A stretch of 64,000 nt of DNA from Chloroherpetonaceae bacterium. Its GTDB lineage: Bacteria; Bacteroidota; Chlorobiia; Chlorobiales; Thermochlorobacteraceae. This document shows positions 5,560-23,772 of this stretch, piece by piece. The notes under the pieces were generated by a model. The model searched no databases, was not told the origin of the DNA, and saw only the letters and a program-made list of their open reading frames with translations. The translations under genes were made by a program, and so were the position numbers. The stretch's first letter is position 1; each line of letters opens with the position of its first letter. Location of the stretch: positions 1 through 64,000 of the forward strand of contig JANWWA010000010.1 in assembly GCA_025056565.1 (NCBI GenBank), in the 5' to 3' direction.

Positions 5560-6483
5560 CTATGGCTTACGCTCGTTTTCTTTGAGAATACTGGTCTCAA
5601 GATTTTTCAAGTTAAGGCCGGGCGTGGCGGTGTAGGTTTTGTAGAGCTCGACCGCCGTTTGCACCGTGCTTTCCAGCGTGTCGCGCCGAAGCGGACGCAC
5701 CAAATAGCGAAAAATCTGCACCTGATTGATGAGCTGAATAGCCAAGCCAGAATCTTTCATAGAGCTGAGGACAATAATCGGCGTGTTGGGGTTAAACGAT
5801 TTGACTTCGCTTAGGAATTTGACAGGGTCAGTGTCAGGCAAACTCAGCTCGGTGATAATAGCAGCCATTGGCGTGCGCTTCAAAATTTCTATTGCTGACT
5901 GCGCCGTGCTGCTGATGTTGACGACGTAATTTTCTGCAAAAAGGTCTCGCATTGAGGCTAAGTGCGACTGATTGTTGTCAATGACGAGAATCGGCAATTT
6001 CTCTGGTATGAAGATGCGCGTGTGATTGGCAGAAGAGGAACTGCTATTAGTGCCAGCAGGCGCAGAGGTAGCAGTCGGTTGCGCAACAGGAGCTTTGGGC
6101 ATAATGAGGCGAGTGCGCTGCGCAAGTTCCATGGCAAGTTTCACAGTGCTGCGAAGCTTATCCACGTCCCATGGCTTTAAGATGTAACGATAGACCTCGC
6201 CCGTGTTGACAGAGCTGAGCACTTCGTTAAGGTCGGAGTAACCAGTCAGCAGTATGCGTATCGCAATAGGATTGATTTTCTTGGCTTCGCGCAAAAACTC
6301 GACGCCAGTCATCGTCGGCATACGCTGGTCGGTTACGATGACGTCAATTTCAGGGTGCTTGCGCAGAATATCTAAGGCGTCTCTGGCACGCTGAGCAGTG
6401 TATGGGCGCTCTTCTCGGAAAAGCTCAGTCAGTGAGAGCAGCACATTCGGCTCGTCGTCGACAAACAGCAATCTACTTGGCAT
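5560..6483 (-). CDS. Double-receiver response regulator, second receiver degenerate
   Basis: The 307-residue protein has two CheY-like receiver domains joined by a Ser/Thr/Ala-rich linker (about 130-160), and no output domain. Receiver 1 is complete: acidic pocket D9-D10, phospho-acceptor D52 in IVTDQRMP, T80 and K103 in ILKPWD, resembling the receivers of RpfG-type regulators. In receiver 2 the pocket keeps D169 (LVIDNN), but the acceptor position is Glu212 (AIITELSLPD) and the switch lysine is Arg263 (LVRPLRR). It therefore probably cannot be phosphorylated and may act as a fixed interaction module. It starts the operon that continues with the ABC-2 permease. No kinase is adjacent, so its partner is unknown. 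Confidence 0.9.
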   Translation of the reverse strand: MPSRLLFVDDEPNVLLSLTELFREERPYTAQRARDALDILRKHPEIDVIVTDQRMPTMTGVEFLREAKKINPIAIRILLTGYSDLNEVLSSVNTGEVYRYILKPWDVDKLRSTVKLAMELAQRTRLIMPKAPVAQPTATSAPAGTNSSSSSANHTRIFIPEKLPILVIDNNQSHLASMRDLFAENYVVNISSTAQSAIEILKRTPMAAIITELSLPDTDPVKFLSEVKSFNPNTPIIVLSSMKDSGLAIQLINQVQIFRYLVRPLRRDTLESTVQTAVELYKTYTATPGLNLKNLETSILKENERKP

Positions 6484-10611: not shown

Positions 10612-12504
10612 ATGCTGGAACTCTTAAAAAAGTTAGATGCAAGGATTCAAGCAGCAAATGATCCACGCGACATTGTCGACGCCCTCAACGATTACGCTTG
10701 GAGCGTAATGCGCACCGACCTTAGAAGCGCAATGACGCGCGCAGAGCAAGCCTTGGAACTGGCAAAGAATTTTTCATATGAAGGCGGCGTAGCCCGCAGT
10801 TTGCGCAACCGGGGATTGTGTCATCACCAGTATTCAAACTATGAGGCAGCTCTGCACGACATCAACGAAGCACTCTACCTTTTCCGAAAAGTGGGCGATG
10901 CTTCCGGTGAAGCCAGCGCACTCAACAACTTGGGGAGCATTTACGCCGACCTTGGTGAATATACACGCGCACTCGACTACTTTGAGCAAAGCTACAAACT
11001 TTACCGCGACCTTGATTACAAAATTGGCGAAGCGGCGAGCATTACCAACTTGGGGGACATTTACTACCGATTGGGTGAATACTCCCGCGCACTGGGATAC
11101 TTTCAGCAAAGCCTTGAACTCTACAAAGACATCAAACACAAACAGGGCGAAGCCACTGCCTTAGCCAGCATTGGCAATGTCTATTCTGCGTTAGGTGCGC
11201 ATACTCAAGCCCTCAATAACCTGCTTGCTAGCCTCCAACTCTTTGAATCCTTAGGCGATAAGCAAAGTCTGGCTACCACGCTAAAAGACATTGGCGCAGT
11301 CTATGAAAAATTAGATTCCAGTGAGCAAGCGATTGAGTATTTTGAGCGCAGCCTTTCTTTGATGGAGCAGATTGGAGACCGACACGGGCAAGCGATTGTG
11401 CAGTTATCGCTTGGGCAATTTCTACTCTCCAAAGAATTGCTTGACCAAGCGCAGCCACATCTTGAACGCAGCTTGGAGGTAGCTGAAGAAATCAATGCCA
11501 AGCCTGAGATTTACCGCGCCCATCAAGCACTGGCAGAACTATACAAACTCAAGGGCAACTATCGTAGTGCGTTTGACCATATTGAAAAGTTCTACCAAAT
11601 CCGCTCCGAAGTGATAGGCGAAGAACTAAACCGCAAGCTGACCAATCAGAAAATCACATTTGCAGTCGAGAAAGCAGAAAAGGAAGCGGAGATTTACCGC
11701 CTCAAAACAGTGGAGCTGGCTCAGGCAAACAAAGCACTGGAAGAGGCAAACGCGCTTAAAACCGAGCTGCTGCACATTGCCGCTCACGACCTCAAAAATC
11801 CCCTCACAGCCGTGATGACCTTCGCTGAGCTGATTCGTGAGCAAGCAGACGATGTAGAGTTTGTCCGCACTCAAGCCCAAGCGATTTATCAGTCGACTGA
11901 GCAGATGTTTAACCTTGTAAAAAGCCTCTTAGAGCAAGCGGCCCTGGAGAGCGGAAAAGTGGAGTTAAATAAGAAGGTTGTCGATATAGCCACGATTGCA
12001 GAGTTTGTAGTGAAGCACAACGAAATGAACGCACACAACAAAGGTCAGCAGATTCACTTGGCGTTAGAGCGAGAAGCATATGCGGAAGTAGATGTCGAGA
12101 AGATGCAGAGCATTTTTGATAACCTGATTTCCAACGCCATCAAGTATTCGCCGCACGGACGCCACATTTGGGTCAGTGTCAAGAAGAAATTGCTCACAAT
12201 CGATGGCGTCGAGCTGACCAGTGGCAACATTCCGACCAAAATCATCTTTGAAGTGCGTGATGAAGGCCTAGGGCTGACCGAAGAAGACAAGCAAAAGCTC
12301 TTCGGCAAATTTCAGCGGCTGTCGGCACGTCCAACAGGTGGCGAAAGCTCCTCTGGCCTGGGGCTTGCAATTGTCAAACAGTGGGTAGAATTACACGGCG
12401 GACGAGTGTGGGCAGAGTCGGAAGGCAAAAACAAAGGGGCAACATTTTTTGTCGAACTGAATGCCGCAGAAAAGCCGGCTGCACTCGAGGCAGAAACGGC
12501 ATAG
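10612..12504 (+). CDS. Cytoplasmic TPR-repeat sensor histidine kinase
   Basis: A 630-residue kinase with no membrane segment or signal peptide. Residues about 55-335 form tandem tetratricopeptide repeats of 40 residues (repeated motifs such as ALNNLGSIYADLGEYTRALD), a coiled coil follows (about 345-385), then HisKA with H392 in HIAAHDLKNPLTAV, then the ATPase domain with the N box DNLISNAIKYS, G1 DEGLGL and G2 SGLGLAIVK. All key residues are present. The phosphorylation relay partner is not encoded nearby. Its C-terminal 150 residues resemble those of the propeller sensor at 15.8-19 kb (shared KFQRLSA-PTGGE signature), so the two catalytic modules are paralogous. The input is presumably a protein partner bound by the TPRs (inference). 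Confidence 0.93.
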   Translation: MLELLKKLDARIQAANDPRDIVDALNDYAWSVMRTDLRSAMTRAEQALELAKNFSYEGGVARSLRNRGLCHHQYSNYEAALHDINEALYLFRKVGDASGEASALNNLGSIYADLGEYTRALDYFEQSYKLYRDLDYKIGEAASITNLGDIYYRLGEYSRALGYFQQSLELYKDIKHKQGEATALASIGNVYSALGAHTQALNNLLASLQLFESLGDKQSLATTLKDIGAVYEKLDSSEQAIEYFERSLSLMEQIGDRHGQAIVQLSLGQFLLSKELLDQAQPHLERSLEVAEEINAKPEIYRAHQALAELYKLKGNYRSAFDHIEKFYQIRSEVIGEELNRKLTNQKITFAVEKAEKEAEIYRLKTVELAQANKALEEANALKTELLHIAAHDLKNPLTAVMTFAELIREQADDVEFVRTQAQAIYQSTEQMFNLVKSLLEQAALESGKVELNKKVVDIATIAEFVVKHNEMNAHNKGQQIHLALEREAYAEVDVEKMQSIFDNLISNAIKYSPHGRHIWVSVKKKLLTIDGVELTSGNIPTKIIFEVRDEGLGLTEEDKQKLFGKFQRLSARPTGGESSSGLGLAIVKQWVELHGGRVWAESEGKNKGATFFVELNAAEKPAALEAETA

Positions 12505-15836: not shown

Positions 15837-18800
15837 TTACTCTACAGCGGGAAGTTCCACGATAAAGGTTGCACCTTTGCCTTTGCCGTCGGATTCTGCC
15901 CACACTTTGCCGTTGTGCAAATCCACGATGCGCTTAACCAGCGCTAAGCCCAAACCGACTGATGTTTCACCGCCTGTTGGCTGAGCTGACAGTCGCTGAA
16001 ACTTGCGAAACAGTAGAAACTTATCCTCCTCGCTAAGTCCCTGTCCTTCATCATGCACTTCAATGCGCCCCATCTGATTTTCTTTGCATACCGTTACCCA
16101 AATCGTTTTACCAAATGGCGAATACTTAATTGCATTAGAGATAAGCTGCCCGACCATTTCTGTGAGGCGGTCTTCATCACCAAAGACGATGCAATCGCTT
16201 CTGACACTGAGTTCAATTCGCTGCGATTTTTTCGCCGCAAGGTCTTGGTGGCGCATTACAGCAAGCTCAGCAAGACCTTTGAGGGAAATATCTCGTTTGC
16301 GAAGCACGAGGCTTTCGATGCCGAGAATATTTGAATCCAGCAGCTTATCGACCGTTACGCTCATTCGGTTGGCAAGGTCACGAATAATGTTCAGGTATTG
16401 AACTTGTAGATGGAGCGGCACCTCGCCATTTAGAAGCATAGTTGTGAAATCCATAATGCTTTTAAGTGGCGTTTTAAGTTCATTTGCGGCTACGCCAATC
16501 AGTTCAGTCTTGAACTCATTAGCTGCTTGGGCAATTTCTCGCTGGCGTTCAGAGTTCTCTTTCTCGAGCTGCAAGTCGCGTGTGCGCTCCTCGACCAGCT
16601 TGCGTAGCTCTTCTTGCTTGGCATTCATTTGGCGAATGCGCCATGACCACGCACCAAAAGCTGTCAGCACGATGCTGAATGCACAAACTAAGATGAACCA
16701 AAGTGATTGATAAAAGCGCGGTTCAACTTTGAACGAAATGCTAGCACCTTGCTCATTCCAAATGCCATCATTGTTGCATGCTATGACGCGAAAGGTATAT
16801 AGCTTCGGAGGCAAATTGGTGTAAGTAATCTCCCGCTCATTGCCCATATCGTTCCAGTCTGCGTCGAACCCTTCCAGCTTAGTCTTGAAGCGCATCTTCT
16901 CTGGGGCAACGAAGGAGAGAGCCGTGTAGTGAATGTTGTAACGCTGCACGTCAGGAGGAAAGACAAGCTCAGGTGAGGGGGATGTGATACCTTTGTCCGT
17001 GCGAATGTGCTCAATGCGGACAGGCGGTACCAGCGGGTTGTAACGAATTCGATAAGGGTTCACGACCACGACGCCTTTGCCAGTTGGAATCCATAGCTCG
17101 CCAGTTTTGCTGGGACGCACAGGCATACAGGCGCCAGTTACCTCACTAGTTTTCATTCCGTCGGAGCGATCGAAGGATTTTGCGTTAAGTCTCGCTATCT
17201 TGCCATCTAACACATCGCATAGCTCCTGAAACGGGAAAAATGAAATGCCGTTGTTCCCACCTGTCCAAACATTGCCTAGTGAGTCCATTACAAGAAAAAA
17301 GACGGCCTGCGAGTAAAGCCCGTTGTTAGTGGTTGCATTTGTGATGCGTCCAGCTTTGAGGCGAGAAATGCCCATATTGGAGCCGAAGAGCATAGATCCA
17401 TCGGGCGCTTCCATTGCACAGAGCACAACTCCTGAAACAAGACCATTAGCAGATGTGTAGGTAATCAGCGAATCGCCTTTGATGCAGCCAATACCGTTAC
17501 CATCGGTGCCAAACCAAATGCACTTGTCTCGGGATTCATAAATGAAGGTAATGGAGTAGCGTGTGAACTGACCAAACTTGGGCAAGTTGTAAGGTCGGAG
17601 CGAATCATCTACCAGTTGGTATAAGCCACCGACACTGCCTGTCCAGATGCGCTTGCGAGAGTCTTCATAGACGACACGCACGCGGTCGCCCGCGCCGCCA
17701 CCAACGGAGAAACACCTAAATGAATTGCCCTCTAAGCGGCAGATGCCAGAGTAGGTGGCAAAGTAAAGCTCCCCACGAGAGGTGCGCAAAATGTAGCGCA
17801 CAAGGTCATCAGGCAACCCATTTGCGGTAGAATAGTTGATAAACCGACCGTCGACAAAGTGACTAATCCCACCAGCGGTTGCAATCCAAAATGAGCCATC
17901 ACGGTCTTGATACACGCCATAGACAATATCATCTATAAGCCCTTCACGTGAGGTGTAGGTAAGAAACTTGCCGTCTTTGAAGCGGTTCAGTCCGCCACGA
18001 TAAGTGCCAACCCAAAGGTTGCCTTCACAGTCAAAAGCCATCGTTTGAACTTGGTTATCGGTCAGCCCATCTTTTTTGGCAAAGTAGGCAAACACAGGCT
18101 TGCCCGTTTGCCCAAAGCGCATACGACAGATGCCGCCATTGTAAGTGCCAATCCAAAGCACGCCAGCTGTATCGACCAGAACCGAAAGCACGCGATTGTG
18201 GGGCAATCCGTCAGCCGTTGTGTAGAGCGAGAAGCGACCATGTTGATATCGGTATAGCCCACGGTCGCCTGTGCCCATCCAAAGTGAGTGCGTGAGTGTG
18301 TCTTCAGTGATAGTCCAAACTGAACCTAAACTGAATCCATCTGACTCTGTAAACTGCTTGAAGACACCCTCTTTGAAACTCCAAAGGCCGCCCACGGAGC
18401 CAATCCAAAGTGTGCCTTCTTGGTCTAAGGTCACGTGGTTGATGGCATTTTGCTGCACATCGCCTGGGATTCGGTAACTGGTGATTTGCCCACTGGCAGA
18501 AATGTGAGCAATGCCTTCGCGTGTGCCGATCCACATTCCGCCAGCTCGGTCAGAGCAGAGATGATGCACCACATTGCTGGGTAAGCCATCTTCAACCGTG
18601 AAGGTCTTGAAACGACCGTCTTTAAGCCGCGTAACGCCGCCGCCATTTGTTGCAAACCACAGGCTACCATCTGCAGCCTCGCGAATTGACCAAATGCCGT
18701 TGCCTTTCAGCTCGGGCGTATTGGTGGTATTGAAAATGGTAAAAGAAACACCATCGAAGCGCGCAAAGCCGTCAAAAGTGCCAATCCAGATGTAGCCATC

Positions 18801-18977
18801 CGACGATTGAAAGATGCTGAGAATCGCGTTGGAAGGCAGCCCCTGCTCACGCTGCCAGATGTCGTGCATATATTGCGTAAAGCTCTTTTGCGGGTCTAAT
18901 GCAAAAAGCCAGCGAGGCGCAAACGCTATCGTGAGAAGTAGGGAAATCAAAACGGAAGAGAGCGCATAAGTGCTCAT
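15837..18977 (-). CDS. Propeller (Reg_prop/Y_Y_Y) sensor with kinase domain lacking the phospho-acceptor His
   Basis: A 1046-residue sensor. From the ATG used, a signal peptide (LLLTIAFAPRWLFA) leads into about 13 Reg_prop blades (recurrent GLPSN...DGxxWIGTxxGGL) that should form two periplasmic propellers, then a Y_Y_Y domain (about 685-750), one membrane helix (about 756-778), a coiled coil, and a HisKA-HATPase module. Where HisKA should read xHELRTPL it reads GVAANELKTPLKS; codon 16482-16484 is AAT, so residue 832 is Asn. The ATPase domain keeps the N box QLISNAIKYS, G1 DEGQGL and G2 VGLGLALVK. It resembles hybrid two-component sensors of Bacteroidota but has no receiver or DNA-binding domain. 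An alternative ATG at 19046 adds 23 residues. Confidence 0.9.
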   Translation of the reverse strand: MSTYALSSVLISLLLTIAFAPRWLFALDPQKSFTQYMHDIWQREQGLPSNAILSIFQSSDGYIWIGTFDGFARFDGVSFTIFNTTNTPELKGNGIWSIREAADGSLWFATNGGGVTRLKDGRFKTFTVEDGLPSNVVHHLCSDRAGGMWIGTREGIAHISASGQITSYRIPGDVQQNAINHVTLDQEGTLWIGSVGGLWSFKEGVFKQFTESDGFSLGSVWTITEDTLTHSLWMGTGDRGLYRYQHGRFSLYTTADGLPHNRVLSVLVDTAGVLWIGTYNGGICRMRFGQTGKPVFAYFAKKDGLTDNQVQTMAFDCEGNLWVGTYRGGLNRFKDGKFLTYTSREGLIDDIVYGVYQDRDGSFWIATAGGISHFVDGRFINYSTANGLPDDLVRYILRTSRGELYFATYSGICRLEGNSFRCFSVGGGAGDRVRVVYEDSRKRIWTGSVGGLYQLVDDSLRPYNLPKFGQFTRYSITFIYESRDKCIWFGTDGNGIGCIKGDSLITYTSANGLVSGVVLCAMEAPDGSMLFGSNMGISRLKAGRITNATTNNGLYSQAVFFLVMDSLGNVWTGGNNGISFFPFQELCDVLDGKIARLNAKSFDRSDGMKTSEVTGACMPVRPSKTGELWIPTGKGVVVVNPYRIRYNPLVPPVRIEHIRTDKGITSPSPELVFPPDVQRYNIHYTALSFVAPEKMRFKTKLEGFDADWNDMGNEREITYTNLPPKLYTFRVIACNNDGIWNEQGASISFKVEPRFYQSLWFILVCAFSIVLTAFGAWSWRIRQMNAKQEELRKLVEERTRDLQLEKENSERQREIAQAANEFKTELIGVAANELKTPLKSIMDFTTMLLNGEVPLHLQVQYLNIIRDLANRMSVTVDKLLDSNILGIESLVLRKRDISLKGLAELAVMRHQDLAAKKSQRIELSVRSDCIVFGDEDRLTEMVGQLISNAIKYSPFGKTIWVTVCKENQMGRIEVHDEGQGLSEEDKFLLFRKFQRLSAQPTGGETSVGLGLALVKRIVDLHNGKVWAESDGKGKGATFIVELPAVE

Positions 18978-19231
18978 AGAAAAGAAAGACCCTGACTTGC
19001 CCTTATACTGACACTCAAAGTCTCGAAGAAGTGGTGCGTCGTGCATTAATCGCTATGTGTGAAGAAGCGCAGAGTAAAATATACTCAAATGCGTAGGAAT
19101 TGCGATAAGACAGCGTTAAATCGGAACATTACGAAGAGAGGCAAAGCCTGCAAGCATAGCGCAAGTTGTGCATTGCGCAAATGAAGCCATGCGCCGTATC
19201 TTTACATTTCTTCAACCAAAGCATCACAAAA

Positions 19232-19645
19232 ATGCATCGTTTGCTGATTAACTTACTTATCATAGCTGCACTGGCAAGCTCTATAATGCTCATCAGTCAC
19301 TCAGCTGCTGCACAGGCGACGCAAAAAGGCTTTAAGATTGACTCTACCACGCAAGCGGCGCTGAAAGCTGACAAGAAAGCCAGCGACCTGTACGCCAAAG
19401 TGCGAGCAATTGAAGAAAGTGGTAAAGCCCAAGAGAAAAAGGCGGAGTTGGTAAAGGCGTATATGGAGTTTGCAAACTATATGACTTTTTCGGCACCTGT
19501 TCCACCCGCTATCAAGTATCGACCTGCACTGAAAGCTTATCGACGTGTGTTAGAGCTGGAGCCGAATCACGCTGAGGCGATGAAGAACAAGCAGCAAATC
19601 GAGGAAATCTACAAAGCAATGGGGCGACCCATTCCGCAAGATTGA
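19232..19645 (+). CDS. Small secreted TPR-like protein upstream of porU
   Basis: The ATG at 19232 gives 137 residues starting MHRLLINLLIIAALASSIML, a clear Sec signal peptide cleaved near SAAAQ. The mature part is helical and Lys/Ala-rich; RPALKAYRRVLELEPNHAEA near the C-terminus is one tetratricopeptide-like helix pair. The ORF can be extended upstream to 19166 but that would bury the signal peptide. Its stop overlaps the next start by one base (TGATG), so it is translationally coupled to the PorU gene. I do not recognise a family; a role in the envelope with PorU is inferred from linkage only. Confidence 0.72.
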   Translation: MHRLLINLLIIAALASSIMLISHSAAAQATQKGFKIDSTTQAALKADKKASDLYAKVRAIEESGKAQEKKAELVKAYMEFANYMTFSAPVPPAIKYRPALKAYRRVLELEPNHAEAMKNKQQIEEIYKAMGRPIPQD

Positions 19646-22600
19646 TGACCAGCAAGGCGGTGCGGCAAAATGCAACGTGGTTCACTCCAAGTGCGGTAGG
19701 TCTTTTGGGGCTGTCGCTGTGGCTGCTGTGGCCGCTGTATGCGAAGGCACAGGACAGCGATGTGCGTGTCTTGCAGTCTTCTGAGCAGAGCCTAACGCTG
19801 GAATTCAAGCCAGTCTGGCAAGCCCCTGTGCAGCGTGAGATTGAGGGGCGAAGTTACCTCGAGCTAAATTTTCTATTCGCCTTGCATCAAAGAGAGCGCA
19901 TAGGCTTGCCGCAAAAGCCACTACGTGCAGTGTCTGTAATTGTGCCTTCACGCAATAGGCCTACCGTAGAAGTCGTTGCGGCTGAAAGCGAAGAGTTGCC
20001 AAATGTGCTACTTGCCCCTGTGCCCCGTGAAGGCGCAATCCTCCACGAGCGAGTCTATCAGTGTGCACCAAATTACTTTGTGAAGCAGCCTGCAGTGCTG
20101 GTTGAAGTGTCAGAACCCAAAGTGGCGCGTGGTGTCTATATCTCGCAGCTCTCCTTTTATCCTTTGCACTTTAATCCAGAGAAACGCAGCGTTAGAAAAT
20201 ACACACGCATCGTAGTAAGGCTAAATTTTGCCGAACCGCAAGGCGTGACGCCTATTTTGCAGGCGGCGGAAGATGAGTTTTGCGCGGGACTACTTGGCAA
20301 AGAAAACACAATAAAACTTTTCTCCTCATCGCCAAGAGACAAATCGGTGCAAGCTTCCTCTGCGCTGCAAAGTGTGCTACGCTCAGGCAGGTTCTACAAG
20401 CTCGAAATTCGTGAAGAGGGCGTGTATCGACTTGACCGTGCCTATCTGGAATCGATTGGCATCAATGTGGCAACCGTGAACCCGAAGCGCATTAAAGTTT
20501 ATCAGAACGGAGGCGAAGAATTAGATAAGCGCGTGAATGCACCAAGAATTTCAGACTTGCAAGAATGTGCCATTTTCGTATCAGGCGAAGAAGACGAGCG
20601 CTTCGATGCGAATGATTTTGTGCTCTTTTATGCCAAAGCTGCCTCGGGCATCAAATACGATTCTGTGCGCGGGCGGCTGACGCACTACCTGAACCGACTG
20701 TCAAACTCAGCGTTTGTTTTTCTTGCGCTTGATGGTGAAAATGGTAAGCGCATTCGCACCGTGCCATCGGTGCAAGCGACATCGCCTTTGCGACCAAGTG
20801 CATTTGAGTGGCTGTCGTTTGTGGAAAACGACCGCATCAATTTTTCAAATACAGGACTAAATTTTTTTGATAGTCCGCTAACACTAAGCCGCAATCGCGT
20901 AACCTACAATCTCAGTGCAGCTGGCATTGACCGCACACGCCCTGTGCAGGTTTCGGCGCGCATTATTGCTGCAACTACAGCCAGTGAGACATTCATATTG
21001 CGTGAGTCTGGCTCGCTTATCGCACAGCGCGCCACAGGCATCACGCAAAATTTAGATGCCTACATTTTGGGCGCTGAATTCCGCATTGAGCAAACGCTGC
21101 CGGGCACAGTGATTCAAGGTGAGCAAACAAATACGCAGCTGGAGTTTCTTGCAAGTTCAGAAACCTCAAACCTCTACCTCGACTGGATTGAGCTAAGCTA
21201 TGCACGGCAGTTCGTAGCACAAAACGACTTGCTGCGCTTTAATTCGCTGGTGGGCTTGCGTGCATCGCAAGCGGTGCAGTATGAGGTAACGGGTTTTTCT
21301 GCCACGCCGACCGTTTGGGACATTACCGACCTTGCAAATCCAGTGCGTGTGGCAGGGGAAGTGGCACCGACCAGCATGCGCATGATCCGCAATGAGCAAC
21401 CACAAGCCTATCGTGAGTATGTGGCATTTTCAGAACGCACGGCATTTCTCCGACCTGCGTCAGCGCAACTTGTGCCAAACCAAAATCTGCACAGCCTTGC
21501 TGATGCAAGCAATCCGAATGCTTTCCCAGAGCATCTGATTGTCTATGGCGAAGACTTTCGCACCGAGGCGGAGCGACTGGCGGCCTATCGCAGCAACCGT
21601 GCACGGCATGGCGACCTTGCGCTGCGAAGTGTAGCAATTAGCGTAGGACAAATTTACAATGAGTTCTCTGGCGGCAAGCAAGATTTTACGGCAATTCGTG
21701 ATTTTGTAAAGCTGCTCTACGACTATGCACCTGCGGGACGCAAGCCAAAGTATCTCCTACTTTTCGGCGATGGCGATTGGGATTATCGGGATATTACAGG
21801 ACGGCGATATAGCAAAGTGCCCGTCTATTCGTCTGAGGAAAGTCTGTTAGAACTCTCATATGCTGCAACCACCGATGACTTTTTCGTCTCCGTCGATGGC
21901 GAAGACCTTGTGCCTGACCTTGCCGTAGGGCGCTTCACGGTGCAATCGTTAGCAGAAGCGCGCACTGCAGTGGATAAAACCATTGAGTATGAAACAGCAG
22001 CAGAGCAGGGCGACTGGCGCAATCGAGTGGCATTTGTTGCAGATGATGGGCCGAATGGAAACAAGCCCTCAGATTTCAACCTATTTGTGCGCGATAGTGA
22101 AAACACAATTGAGGTGATGCGTCGTATAGCGCCATATATCAACCCAGTTAAAATTTATGCTTCATTTTTTCGGGCTGAGGCGGCAGCAGGTGGTATGCGT
22201 CGTCCAGGTGCAGCTCGAGAAATCATCACTCAACTCAATCGTGGCGCACTAATTATCAACTACATTGGGCATGGCAATCCGAGCGTCTGGGCAGCAGAGC
22301 GAATCTTTGAGCCAGCCGTGTCATTGCCGCAACTGTTCAACCGAGCACGTCCCACACTGTGCATTACGGCGACATGTGATTTTGGACGCAATGACGACCC
22401 CAATCGACAGAGCGGGGCAGAGCAGATGTTTGTGCTGCCTACGGGAGGGGCAAGCGTGCTGATTCCAACGAATCGCTCCATTTTCACAACCAGTGGCTCA
22501 GCGTTGCCGCCCTTGCTATTTCAGCGTCTCTTTGAGCGGGATGCAAACCAACTGCCTATCCCGCTGGGCATTGCGCTGTTTCGCTTTAAGTTGGGGCTGC

Positions 22601-23772
22601 TCAATACAAGCGATGCAGAAAAGTTTTACCTTTTGGGTGACCCCGCCTTGCGCTTAGGCACAGGACGCACACTGGCTCAACTCGATTCGCTAAACAACAT
22701 AGCGTTGCCGACGGCGCGCCCGCTTCAAATCAAAGCGCTCTCCCGCGTCTCGCTCTCAGGTTCAGCGCGCTTGCCCTCTGGTGCAGTAAATACAGCGTTC
22801 AATGGCATAGCATCGGTATTGGTCTTCGATGCGCCGCGTCAGGCAGCTGCTGACCATGAGGGACGCGGCACAATCGATGAATTCTACGATGTGCAAACTG
22901 CTCTCATTTATCGTGGCACGGCAGAGGTGCGGAATGGTCGTTTCCGCCTCAATTTTGTTGTGCCCAAAGACATTAGCTACGACAGCGTAAAGTTCGGCAA
23001 GATTAGTCTCTACCTTTGGCAGAATGACACAGAGCCTCGCAATACAGTTGCAACTGCAGTGGGTAGTTTCGAGCAATTTGTAGCAACAGGCACCAATCCC
23101 GATGCACCAAACGACACACAAGGCCCTGACATCACCATTTACCTAAATGACCGACAGTTCGTCTCTGGCGGTGTAACCAATGAGCAACCGCTTTTTATTG
23201 CTGAACTCTTCGATGAAAGCGGTATCAACTTGGCGCAAGGTATTGGTAATGCACTAACGCTGATTCTCAATGATGATGAGCGAAATCCAATTATCCTGAA
23301 CGACTTCTATCAAGCAAAGCCTGAGAGTTTTACAGAAGGAGAGGTGCGTTACCGTTTGCCAGTGTTGCAAGAAGGACGCTACACGATACGCTTTAAGGCG
23401 TGGGATACATACAACAACTCCAGTGAAAAAGAGCTAGCGTTTGTCGTGCGACGTGCATCGACCTTGGCGGTTCAGTATGCACTGAGTTTCCCAAACCCAA
23501 CAAGTGGGCGAACTGCATTTTTCATCTCCCACAATCAACCAGGCGAAGTCATGCAAGCTCGCATTAAAATCTACACAATCGCTGGACGACTCGTCAAAAC
23601 GCTGGAGACATTTGAAGCAGCCGCGCCATCGCTACTGCGCTTAGATTGGGATGGCAGAGATGAAGACGGAAGCGACCTTGCAAATGGTATCTATCTCTAC
23701 AAGGTCATTGTCCGAAACCCGCAGCTTAACCAGCAAGTTGAAGTTTTGGAGAAATTGGCAGTGATGCGGTAG
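19645..23772 (+). CDS. porU: PorU-like C25 cysteine peptidase, type IX secretion sortase
   Basis: A 1375-residue exported protein of peptidase family C25 (gingipain). The signal peptide ends near LYAKAQ. A beta-rich N-terminal region leads to the catalytic domain with H876 in NYIGHGNPSVW and C911 in ITATCDFGRNDD, the His-Cys dyad. The C-terminus (about 1280-1375) has FPNPTSGRTAFFI, KIYTIAGRLVKTL and NGIYLYKVI, a FlgD-like/T9SS C-terminal domain. In the type IX secretion system PorU cuts off this signal from cargo proteins and attaches them to the surface. The length (porphyromonad PorU is about 1150) is somewhat larger. No other por gene is visible here. It starts with an ATG overlapping the upstream stop by one base. 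Confidence 0.88.
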   Translation: MTSKAVRQNATWFTPSAVGLLGLSLWLLWPLYAKAQDSDVRVLQSSEQSLTLEFKPVWQAPVQREIEGRSYLELNFLFALHQRERIGLPQKPLRAVSVIVPSRNRPTVEVVAAESEELPNVLLAPVPREGAILHERVYQCAPNYFVKQPAVLVEVSEPKVARGVYISQLSFYPLHFNPEKRSVRKYTRIVVRLNFAEPQGVTPILQAAEDEFCAGLLGKENTIKLFSSSPRDKSVQASSALQSVLRSGRFYKLEIREEGVYRLDRAYLESIGINVATVNPKRIKVYQNGGEELDKRVNAPRISDLQECAIFVSGEEDERFDANDFVLFYAKAASGIKYDSVRGRLTHYLNRLSNSAFVFLALDGENGKRIRTVPSVQATSPLRPSAFEWLSFVENDRINFSNTGLNFFDSPLTLSRNRVTYNLSAAGIDRTRPVQVSARIIAATTASETFILRESGSLIAQRATGITQNLDAYILGAEFRIEQTLPGTVIQGEQTNTQLEFLASSETSNLYLDWIELSYARQFVAQNDLLRFNSLVGLRASQAVQYEVTGFSATPTVWDITDLANPVRVAGEVAPTSMRMIRNEQPQAYREYVAFSERTAFLRPASAQLVPNQNLHSLADASNPNAFPEHLIVYGEDFRTEAERLAAYRSNRARHGDLALRSVAISVGQIYNEFSGGKQDFTAIRDFVKLLYDYAPAGRKPKYLLLFGDGDWDYRDITGRRYSKVPVYSSEESLLELSYAATTDDFFVSVDGEDLVPDLAVGRFTVQSLAEARTAVDKTIEYETAAEQGDWRNRVAFVADDGPNGNKPSDFNLFVRDSENTIEVMRRIAPYINPVKIYASFFRAEAAAGGMRRPGAAREIITQLNRGALIINYIGHGNPSVWAAERIFEPAVSLPQLFNRARPTLCITATCDFGRNDDPNRQSGAEQMFVLPTGGASVLIPTNRSIFTTSGSALPPLLFQRLFERDANQLPIPLGIALFRFKLGLLNTSDAEKFYLLGDPALRLGTGRTLAQLDSLNNIALPTARPLQIKALSRVSLSGSARLPSGAVNTAFNGIASVLVFDAPRQAAADHEGRGTIDEFYDVQTALIYRGTAEVRNGRFRLNFVVPKDISYDSVKFGKISLYLWQNDTEPRNTVATAVGSFEQFVATGTNPDAPNDTQGPDITIYLNDRQFVSGGVTNEQPLFIAELFDESGINLAQGIGNALTLILNDDERNPIILNDFYQAKPESFTEGEVRYRLPVLQEGRYTIRFKAWDTYNNSSEKELAFVVRRASTLAVQYALSFPNPTSGRTAFFISHNQPGEVMQARIKIYTIAGRLVKTLETFEAAAPSLLRLDWDGRDEDGSDLANGIYLYKVIVRNPQLNQQVEVLEKLAVMR

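Follow-up and report, generated by a model that had tools for sequence, protein, structure and literature searches.

The window, the whole 64,000-nucleotide stretch of Chloroherpetonaceae DNA analysed here, carries on its minus strand a long open reading frame (15837-19046), which codes for 1069 aa if read from position 19046 and for 1046 aa if read from an ATG at 18977. In full-protein searches, homology to the orthologues sets in at about residue 32-39 of the 1069-aa ORF, and the sequence following the ATG at 18977 (MSTYALSSVLISLLLTIAF...) resembles a signal peptide, so that 18977, the start adopted in the original prediction, is the likelier one. The gene has the following features:

15837..18977, minus strand: gene for the propeller pseudo-histidine kinase; likely start ATG at 18977 (ORF list, homology onset)
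16977..18908 (approximate), minus strand: Reg_prop repeats, two-component regulator propeller, predicted to be periplasmic (Pfam PF07494, E = 2e-48)
16725..16913, minus strand: Y_Y_Y domain, residues 712-774 (Pfam PF07495, E = 9.3e-15)
16638..16700 (approximate), minus strand: predicted transmembrane helix LWFILVCAFSIVLTAFGAWSW (hydrophobic stretch in the translation)
16335..16511, minus strand: HisKA DHp (dimerisation/phospho-acceptor) domain, residues 846-904 (Pfam PF00512, AlphaFold2 DHp helices)
16482..16484, minus strand: AAT codon for Asn855 at the position of the phospho-acceptor His (read from the sequence; all four orthologues have Asn, all 27 relatives His)
16479..16481, minus strand: Glu856, acidic residue that follows the acceptor position (the 27 His-type relatives all have Asp)
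16470..16472, minus strand: Thr859, the HisKA phosphatase Thr/Asn position (Thr in 4/4 orthologues, Asn or Ser in relatives)
15846..16181, minus strand: HATPase_c (CA) domain, residues 956-1067 (Pfam PF02518, E = 7.5e-25)
16146..16148, minus strand: CAG codon for Gln967 where the N box normally has its first Asn (Gln in all four orthologues, Asn in all 27 relatives)
15957..15959, minus strand: GTC codon for Val1030 of the G2 box, where His-type relatives carry Thr or Ser

From its N-terminus onwards, the protein comprises a signal-peptide-like start, Reg_prop repeats, a Y_Y_Y domain, one membrane helix, and HisKA and HATPase_c domains, the last two in the expected order and both with Pfam matches exceeding the curated cut-offs (for HisKA, 28.7 bits against 26.9; E = 1.4e-6). 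HATPase_c ends the chain, and Pfam returned no PAS, receiver or AraC-type DNA-binding domain in this protein. A periplasmic propeller and Y_Y_Y domain joined to HisKA/HATPase_c is also the arrangement of the Bacteroides Reg_prop/Y_Y_Y HTCS, whereas the window chain is devoid of their receiver, AraC-type DNA-binding domain and acceptor His.

On the minus strand, ATT GGC GTA GCC GCA AAT GAA CTT AAA ACG CCA reads I-G-V-A-A-N-E-L-K-T-P. In phmmer alignments, Asn855 (numbered on the 1069-aa ORF; Asn832 when counted from 18977) falls on the phospho-acceptor His of Thermotoga HK853. The claim from which this analysis started, that AAT at 16482-16484 puts an Asn into the HisKA acceptor position, is therefore borne out by both the reading and the alignment. 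The searched genomes hold only four such Asn-type proteins, the window protein included: its orthologues are 73% (G001) and 74% (G002) identical to it in the same genus and 57% identical (G003) in another genus of the same family. Asn occupies the acceptor position in all four, across two genera, within the flanks V-A-A-N-E-L-[KR]-T-P, and is encoded by AAT, AAT, AAC and AAC. The alignment of orthologues that had been proposed as a check thus shows Asn to be fixed, with synonymous codon differences, and a sequencing or assembly error at this codon is rejected. By comparison, the acceptor His is retained in each of the 27 related His-type kinase modules that were fetched from the same genomes for the final comparison.

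Few residues are invariant in the four Asn-type proteins yet different from the 27 His-type modules, and several of these lie in the active site. The common changes are H855N, D856E, N859T, N967Q, T1030V and six others. Gln967 aligns with N376 of HK853 (phmmer), and the N box reads Q967-L-I-S-N971, departing from the canonical N-x-x-x-N by the replacement of the first Asn while the second is kept. The glycine motifs G1, F and G2 read DEGQG, LFRKFQRL and GLGLA, with Thr changed to Val in G2. The original prediction had described the ATP-binding boxes as all intact; this holds for the second N-box Asn and for the G1, F and G2 motifs, but not for the positions of Gln967 and Val1030. Because the former elements are present, the CA domain probably still binds nucleotide; efficient phosphoryl transfer by it is doubtful. 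With the acceptor His replaced by Asn and the first N-box Asn by Gln, the protein is not expected to autophosphorylate on the canonical residue. The +4 residue of the HisKA phosphatase motif (E/D-x-x-T/N) is Thr859 in all four orthologues.

Conservation is distributed unevenly along the protein. Compared with its G003 orthologue, the window protein is 83% identical over the DHp core, 72% over the CA domain and 50% over the propeller; a pair of His-type orthologues taken from these two genomes gives 76%, 63% and 70% (sensor), respectively. In the DHp/CA module dN is 0.07-0.20, and dS is near or past saturation, so that no dN/dS ratio is usable. Given the stronger conservation of the DHp and CA domains relative to the propeller, the module appears from these comparisons to be strongly constrained and not decaying, and the data do not show relaxed constraint. 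Three of the four ORFs are intact; the G002 orthologue (G002:C8:71978-75077), which comes from a draft genome, is interrupted by two propeller frameshifts, for which recent inactivation and an error of assembly are both possible causes. In a maximum-likelihood tree the Asn clade is monophyletic (support 100/100), with a long stem (1.95) and short tips, and its position among His-type kinases is unsettled. A long stem followed by short tips would fit a change of role with subsequent renewed constraint.

To assess how widespread such proteins are, we searched 395 genomes of the phylum with the DNA-level pattern [AS]-N-[DE]-[LF]-x-x-P. All 39 matches were read; they consist of the four orthologues and 35 non-kinases, with no further Asn-type kinase among them, and a reversed-pattern control gave a similar number of matches. 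The His form of the same pattern, which like the Asn form catches only part of all HisKA kinases, gave about 730 matches in 118 genomes versus 5 in the control. When named genomes were scanned at the protein level, the matches were limited to distant relatives in a Rhodothermaceae MAG and a Treponema MAG (28-33% identity). HisKA domains without the His make up about 0.9% of the family (722/76,471; PMC12632262), an uncommon but known class; few of them have a known role, and the window protein adds to the pseudo-histidine kinases. In the literature searched, which was covered in part, we found no description of a pseudo-histidine kinase with a propeller sensor or of the Asn-plus-Gln signature, and the NtrB variant H139N had no match in the open literature searched. 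The four proteins offer a clean natural case, in that the residue at the acceptor position is fixed in two genera, a further active-site change matches it, the transmitter is strongly constrained and the genome has numerous His-bearing paralogues for comparison.

An AlphaFold2 model based on a 31-sequence module alignment reached a mean pLDDT of 81.9 and a pTM of 0.64; it describes a single chain and is silent on the dimer and on nucleotide arrangement. Foldseek searches with this model gave HK853-RR468 complexes as the best matches, with DivL (4q20) also among the top ones. With HK853, CrdS, EnvZ and NtrB the window protein shares domain order, DHp fold, a Thr/Asn at +4, the second N-box Asn and the glycine boxes, but it differs from them in the absence of the acceptor His and in having Gln for the first N-box Asn. 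Its likeness to Caulobacter DivL lies in a HisKA plus HATPase_c fold with an intact DHp domain in which the acceptor His has been replaced (Tyr550 in DivL). However, DivL has PAS sensors and a Tyr and controls CckA/CtrA, whereas the window protein has a propeller/Y_Y_Y sensor, an Asn and the N-box Gln; the Tyr, PAS sensors and CckA/DivK link by which the DivL family is recognised are all absent, and there is neither orthology nor a common set of partners. A third comparison is offered by a ChrS pseudokinase variant of Corynebacterium glutamicum (PMC9491836), a kinase-dead sensor able to influence a paralogous two-component system. That variant is a laboratory-selected CA frameshift with its His present, in contrast to the natural, fixed loss of the His with the CA domain kept that is seen here.

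The surroundings of the gene were compared among the orthologous loci. The window and both congeners have an EnvC-like gene convergent with the Asn-kinase gene; the G003 gene sits among unrelated genes, with no neighbour in common with the window. A conserved genomic partner is rejected on these grounds: the convergent EnvC-like side is common to the congeners only. In the window genome, G001 and G003, neither a kinase nor a response regulator is a conserved neighbour, and no response regulator adjoins the gene at all. The nearest receiver matches in the window lie about 9 kb away, at 5662-6468 (minus strand), in a 308-aa ORF with two receiver domains. This genome yields 55 receiver matches in all and contains several double-receiver ORFs, some of them near kinases of the wider family of the Asn-kinase. 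On the other side, at 19642-23772 (plus strand), a 1376-aa secreted protein resembles, by its sequence, a PorU/C25-type peptidase of type IX secretion. A TPR kinase 3 kb from the gene, at 10612-12504, had been noted as a paralogous module that keeps its His (H392). It has orthologues in G001 (84%) and G003 (70%), on contigs other than those of the Asn-kinase; the linkage is not conserved, and a partnership resting on it is rejected. The DHp domain of the Asn-kinase is closest to that of another TPR kinase of the same genome, G000:C1:96517 (42% identity, 40% for its G001 orthologue; others at most 34%), which makes the latter a possible partner, a lead and not evidence. Propeller kinases and TPR proteins are found side by side elsewhere: a TPR kinase is the immediate neighbour of a His-type propeller kinase in a different family of the order (G010:C391:1150-6633), and the pairing of a propeller kinase with a TPR protein recurs at G000:C15:62428-66788 and on G001:C22.

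The acceptor His is lost in every orthologue and the module is under purifying selection. The pseudokinase role suggested in the original prediction is credible because the canonical His is unusable, Asn is fixed in its place and selection acts on the module. We regard it as highly probable that the window protein is a pseudo-histidine kinase, whatever its mechanism, and it probably signals without self-phosphorylation, as do a few other known pseudo-kinases.

As for the mechanism, the simplest one, given the Thr retained at +4, is that of a phosphatase, a reading absent from those listed in the original prediction. In HisKA proteins the acidic residue after the His is needed for kinase activity and the Thr/Asn at +4 for phosphatase activity, the His itself serving mainly the kinase reaction (PMC3510030). 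Accordingly, CrdS H371A still shortens the half-life of CrdA~P from 53.5 to 2.6 min, and CrdS N375T is partly active (PMC3510030). ADP stimulates the phosphatase activity of HK853 and EnvZ (PMC7005713), which would explain why the nucleotide pocket has been retained. In the scheme that we propose, a single membrane helix would link a periplasmic propeller/Y_Y_Y sensor to a folded HisKA and HATPase_c transmitter, which presumably dimerises and binds nucleotide. Least certain are the next two steps, in which helix 1 of the DHp domain would dock an unlinked response regulator and, with Thr859 at the phosphatase position, the protein would remove or shield the aspartyl phosphate of that regulator. 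It may in this way oppose at least one of the many His-type paralogues of the genome, gated by the propeller signal. The loss of the His and of the first N-box Asn, together with the kept Thr859, nucleotide pocket and conserved DHp domain, fits a signal-gated phosphatase or regulator-binding protein. Such a phosphatase or binder is the likeliest mechanism, held tentatively and at somewhat less than an even chance; phosphatase activity taken by itself is about as probable or slightly less so. Several points temper it. The presence of the phosphatase Thr is no proof of activity, and the acidic residue specific to the kinase reaction persists (as Glu), although a pure phosphatase could do without it. 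PleC H610A loses both its kinase and its phosphatase activity (PMC3510030), DivL, when tested, had neither and acts through binding of DivK~P (PMC4211667), and the authors of a survey contend that His-less kinases do not generally act as phosphatases (PMC12632262). In its own genome, G001 and G003 alike, the gene has no adjacent response regulator that could be named as a substrate of the proposed phosphatase. The broader proposal, that the four proteins form a lineage-specific family of propeller-sensing, dedicated response-regulator phosphatases without the acceptor His and first N-box Asn, gating the phosphate set by His-type paralogues, is speculative and should be considered rather unlikely as it stands.

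An allosteric role like that of DivL deserves the most serious attention among the alternatives, even if we think it unlikely. The protein would then be non-enzymatic and would bind a phosphorylated response regulator or a partner kinase, shifting that kinase between its kinase and phosphatase states. DivL is the nearest characterised precedent, with Tyr for His, weak ATP binding and phospho-specific regulator binding (PMC4211667), and its structure recurs among the top matches of our model. The second fixed change in the ATP site, Gln967, suggests that catalysis is dispensable, and the unusually conserved DHp domain has its closest relative in the TPR-kinase family of G000:C1:96517, a possible partner. 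However, the phosphatase Thr and those nucleotide motifs that remain have been conserved intact, which exceeds the needs of a pure scaffold, and no partner is linked to the gene.

Considerably less probable is that the protein acts as one half of a mixed dimer, its CA domain phosphorylating in trans the His of a paralogous kinase. Heterodimers of paralogous kinases are documented for ChrS/HrrS (PMC9491836), the genome encodes many paralogues with the same type of DHp domain, and the CA domain is largely conserved. Nevertheless, Gln replaces the first N-box Asn that all 27 His-type relatives have, the G2 box is changed by T1030V, and DHp identity to any paralogue does not exceed 42%, which is low for mixed dimers. 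Phosphorylation of another residue, in the protein itself or in a different one, was also among the earlier suggestions; we consider such an atypical kinase very improbable. An ATP-binding fold is present according to both Pfam and AlphaFold2, and the domain contains other nucleophiles, but neither position 855 nor its flanks have acquired a fixed nucleophile, nothing else points to a substitute site, and the fixed N-box change, mildly adverse to this idea, is likelier to weaken catalysis than to redirect it. A non-functional or decaying gene, or an error in the sequence, is the least credible explanation, for despite the two propeller frameshifts of the G002 copy, Asn occurs in four genomes with different synonymous codons, three ORFs are intact, the transmitter is more conserved than the sensor and dN is far below the saturated dS.

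The four natural proteins, together with point mutants, make the role of His-less sensors (phosphatase, regulator sink or kinase modulator) directly testable. Two further variants were met in the same genome. A paralogous kinase at G000:C9:34851-35660 has the motif H-D-V-K-N-I-I, in which His and Asn are kept and the conserved Pro is lost. At G000:C6:122800-127000, a propeller/Y_Y_Y protein appears, from a reading of its sequence, to end in a SpoIIE/PP2C-type phosphatase-like domain that replaces the kinase.
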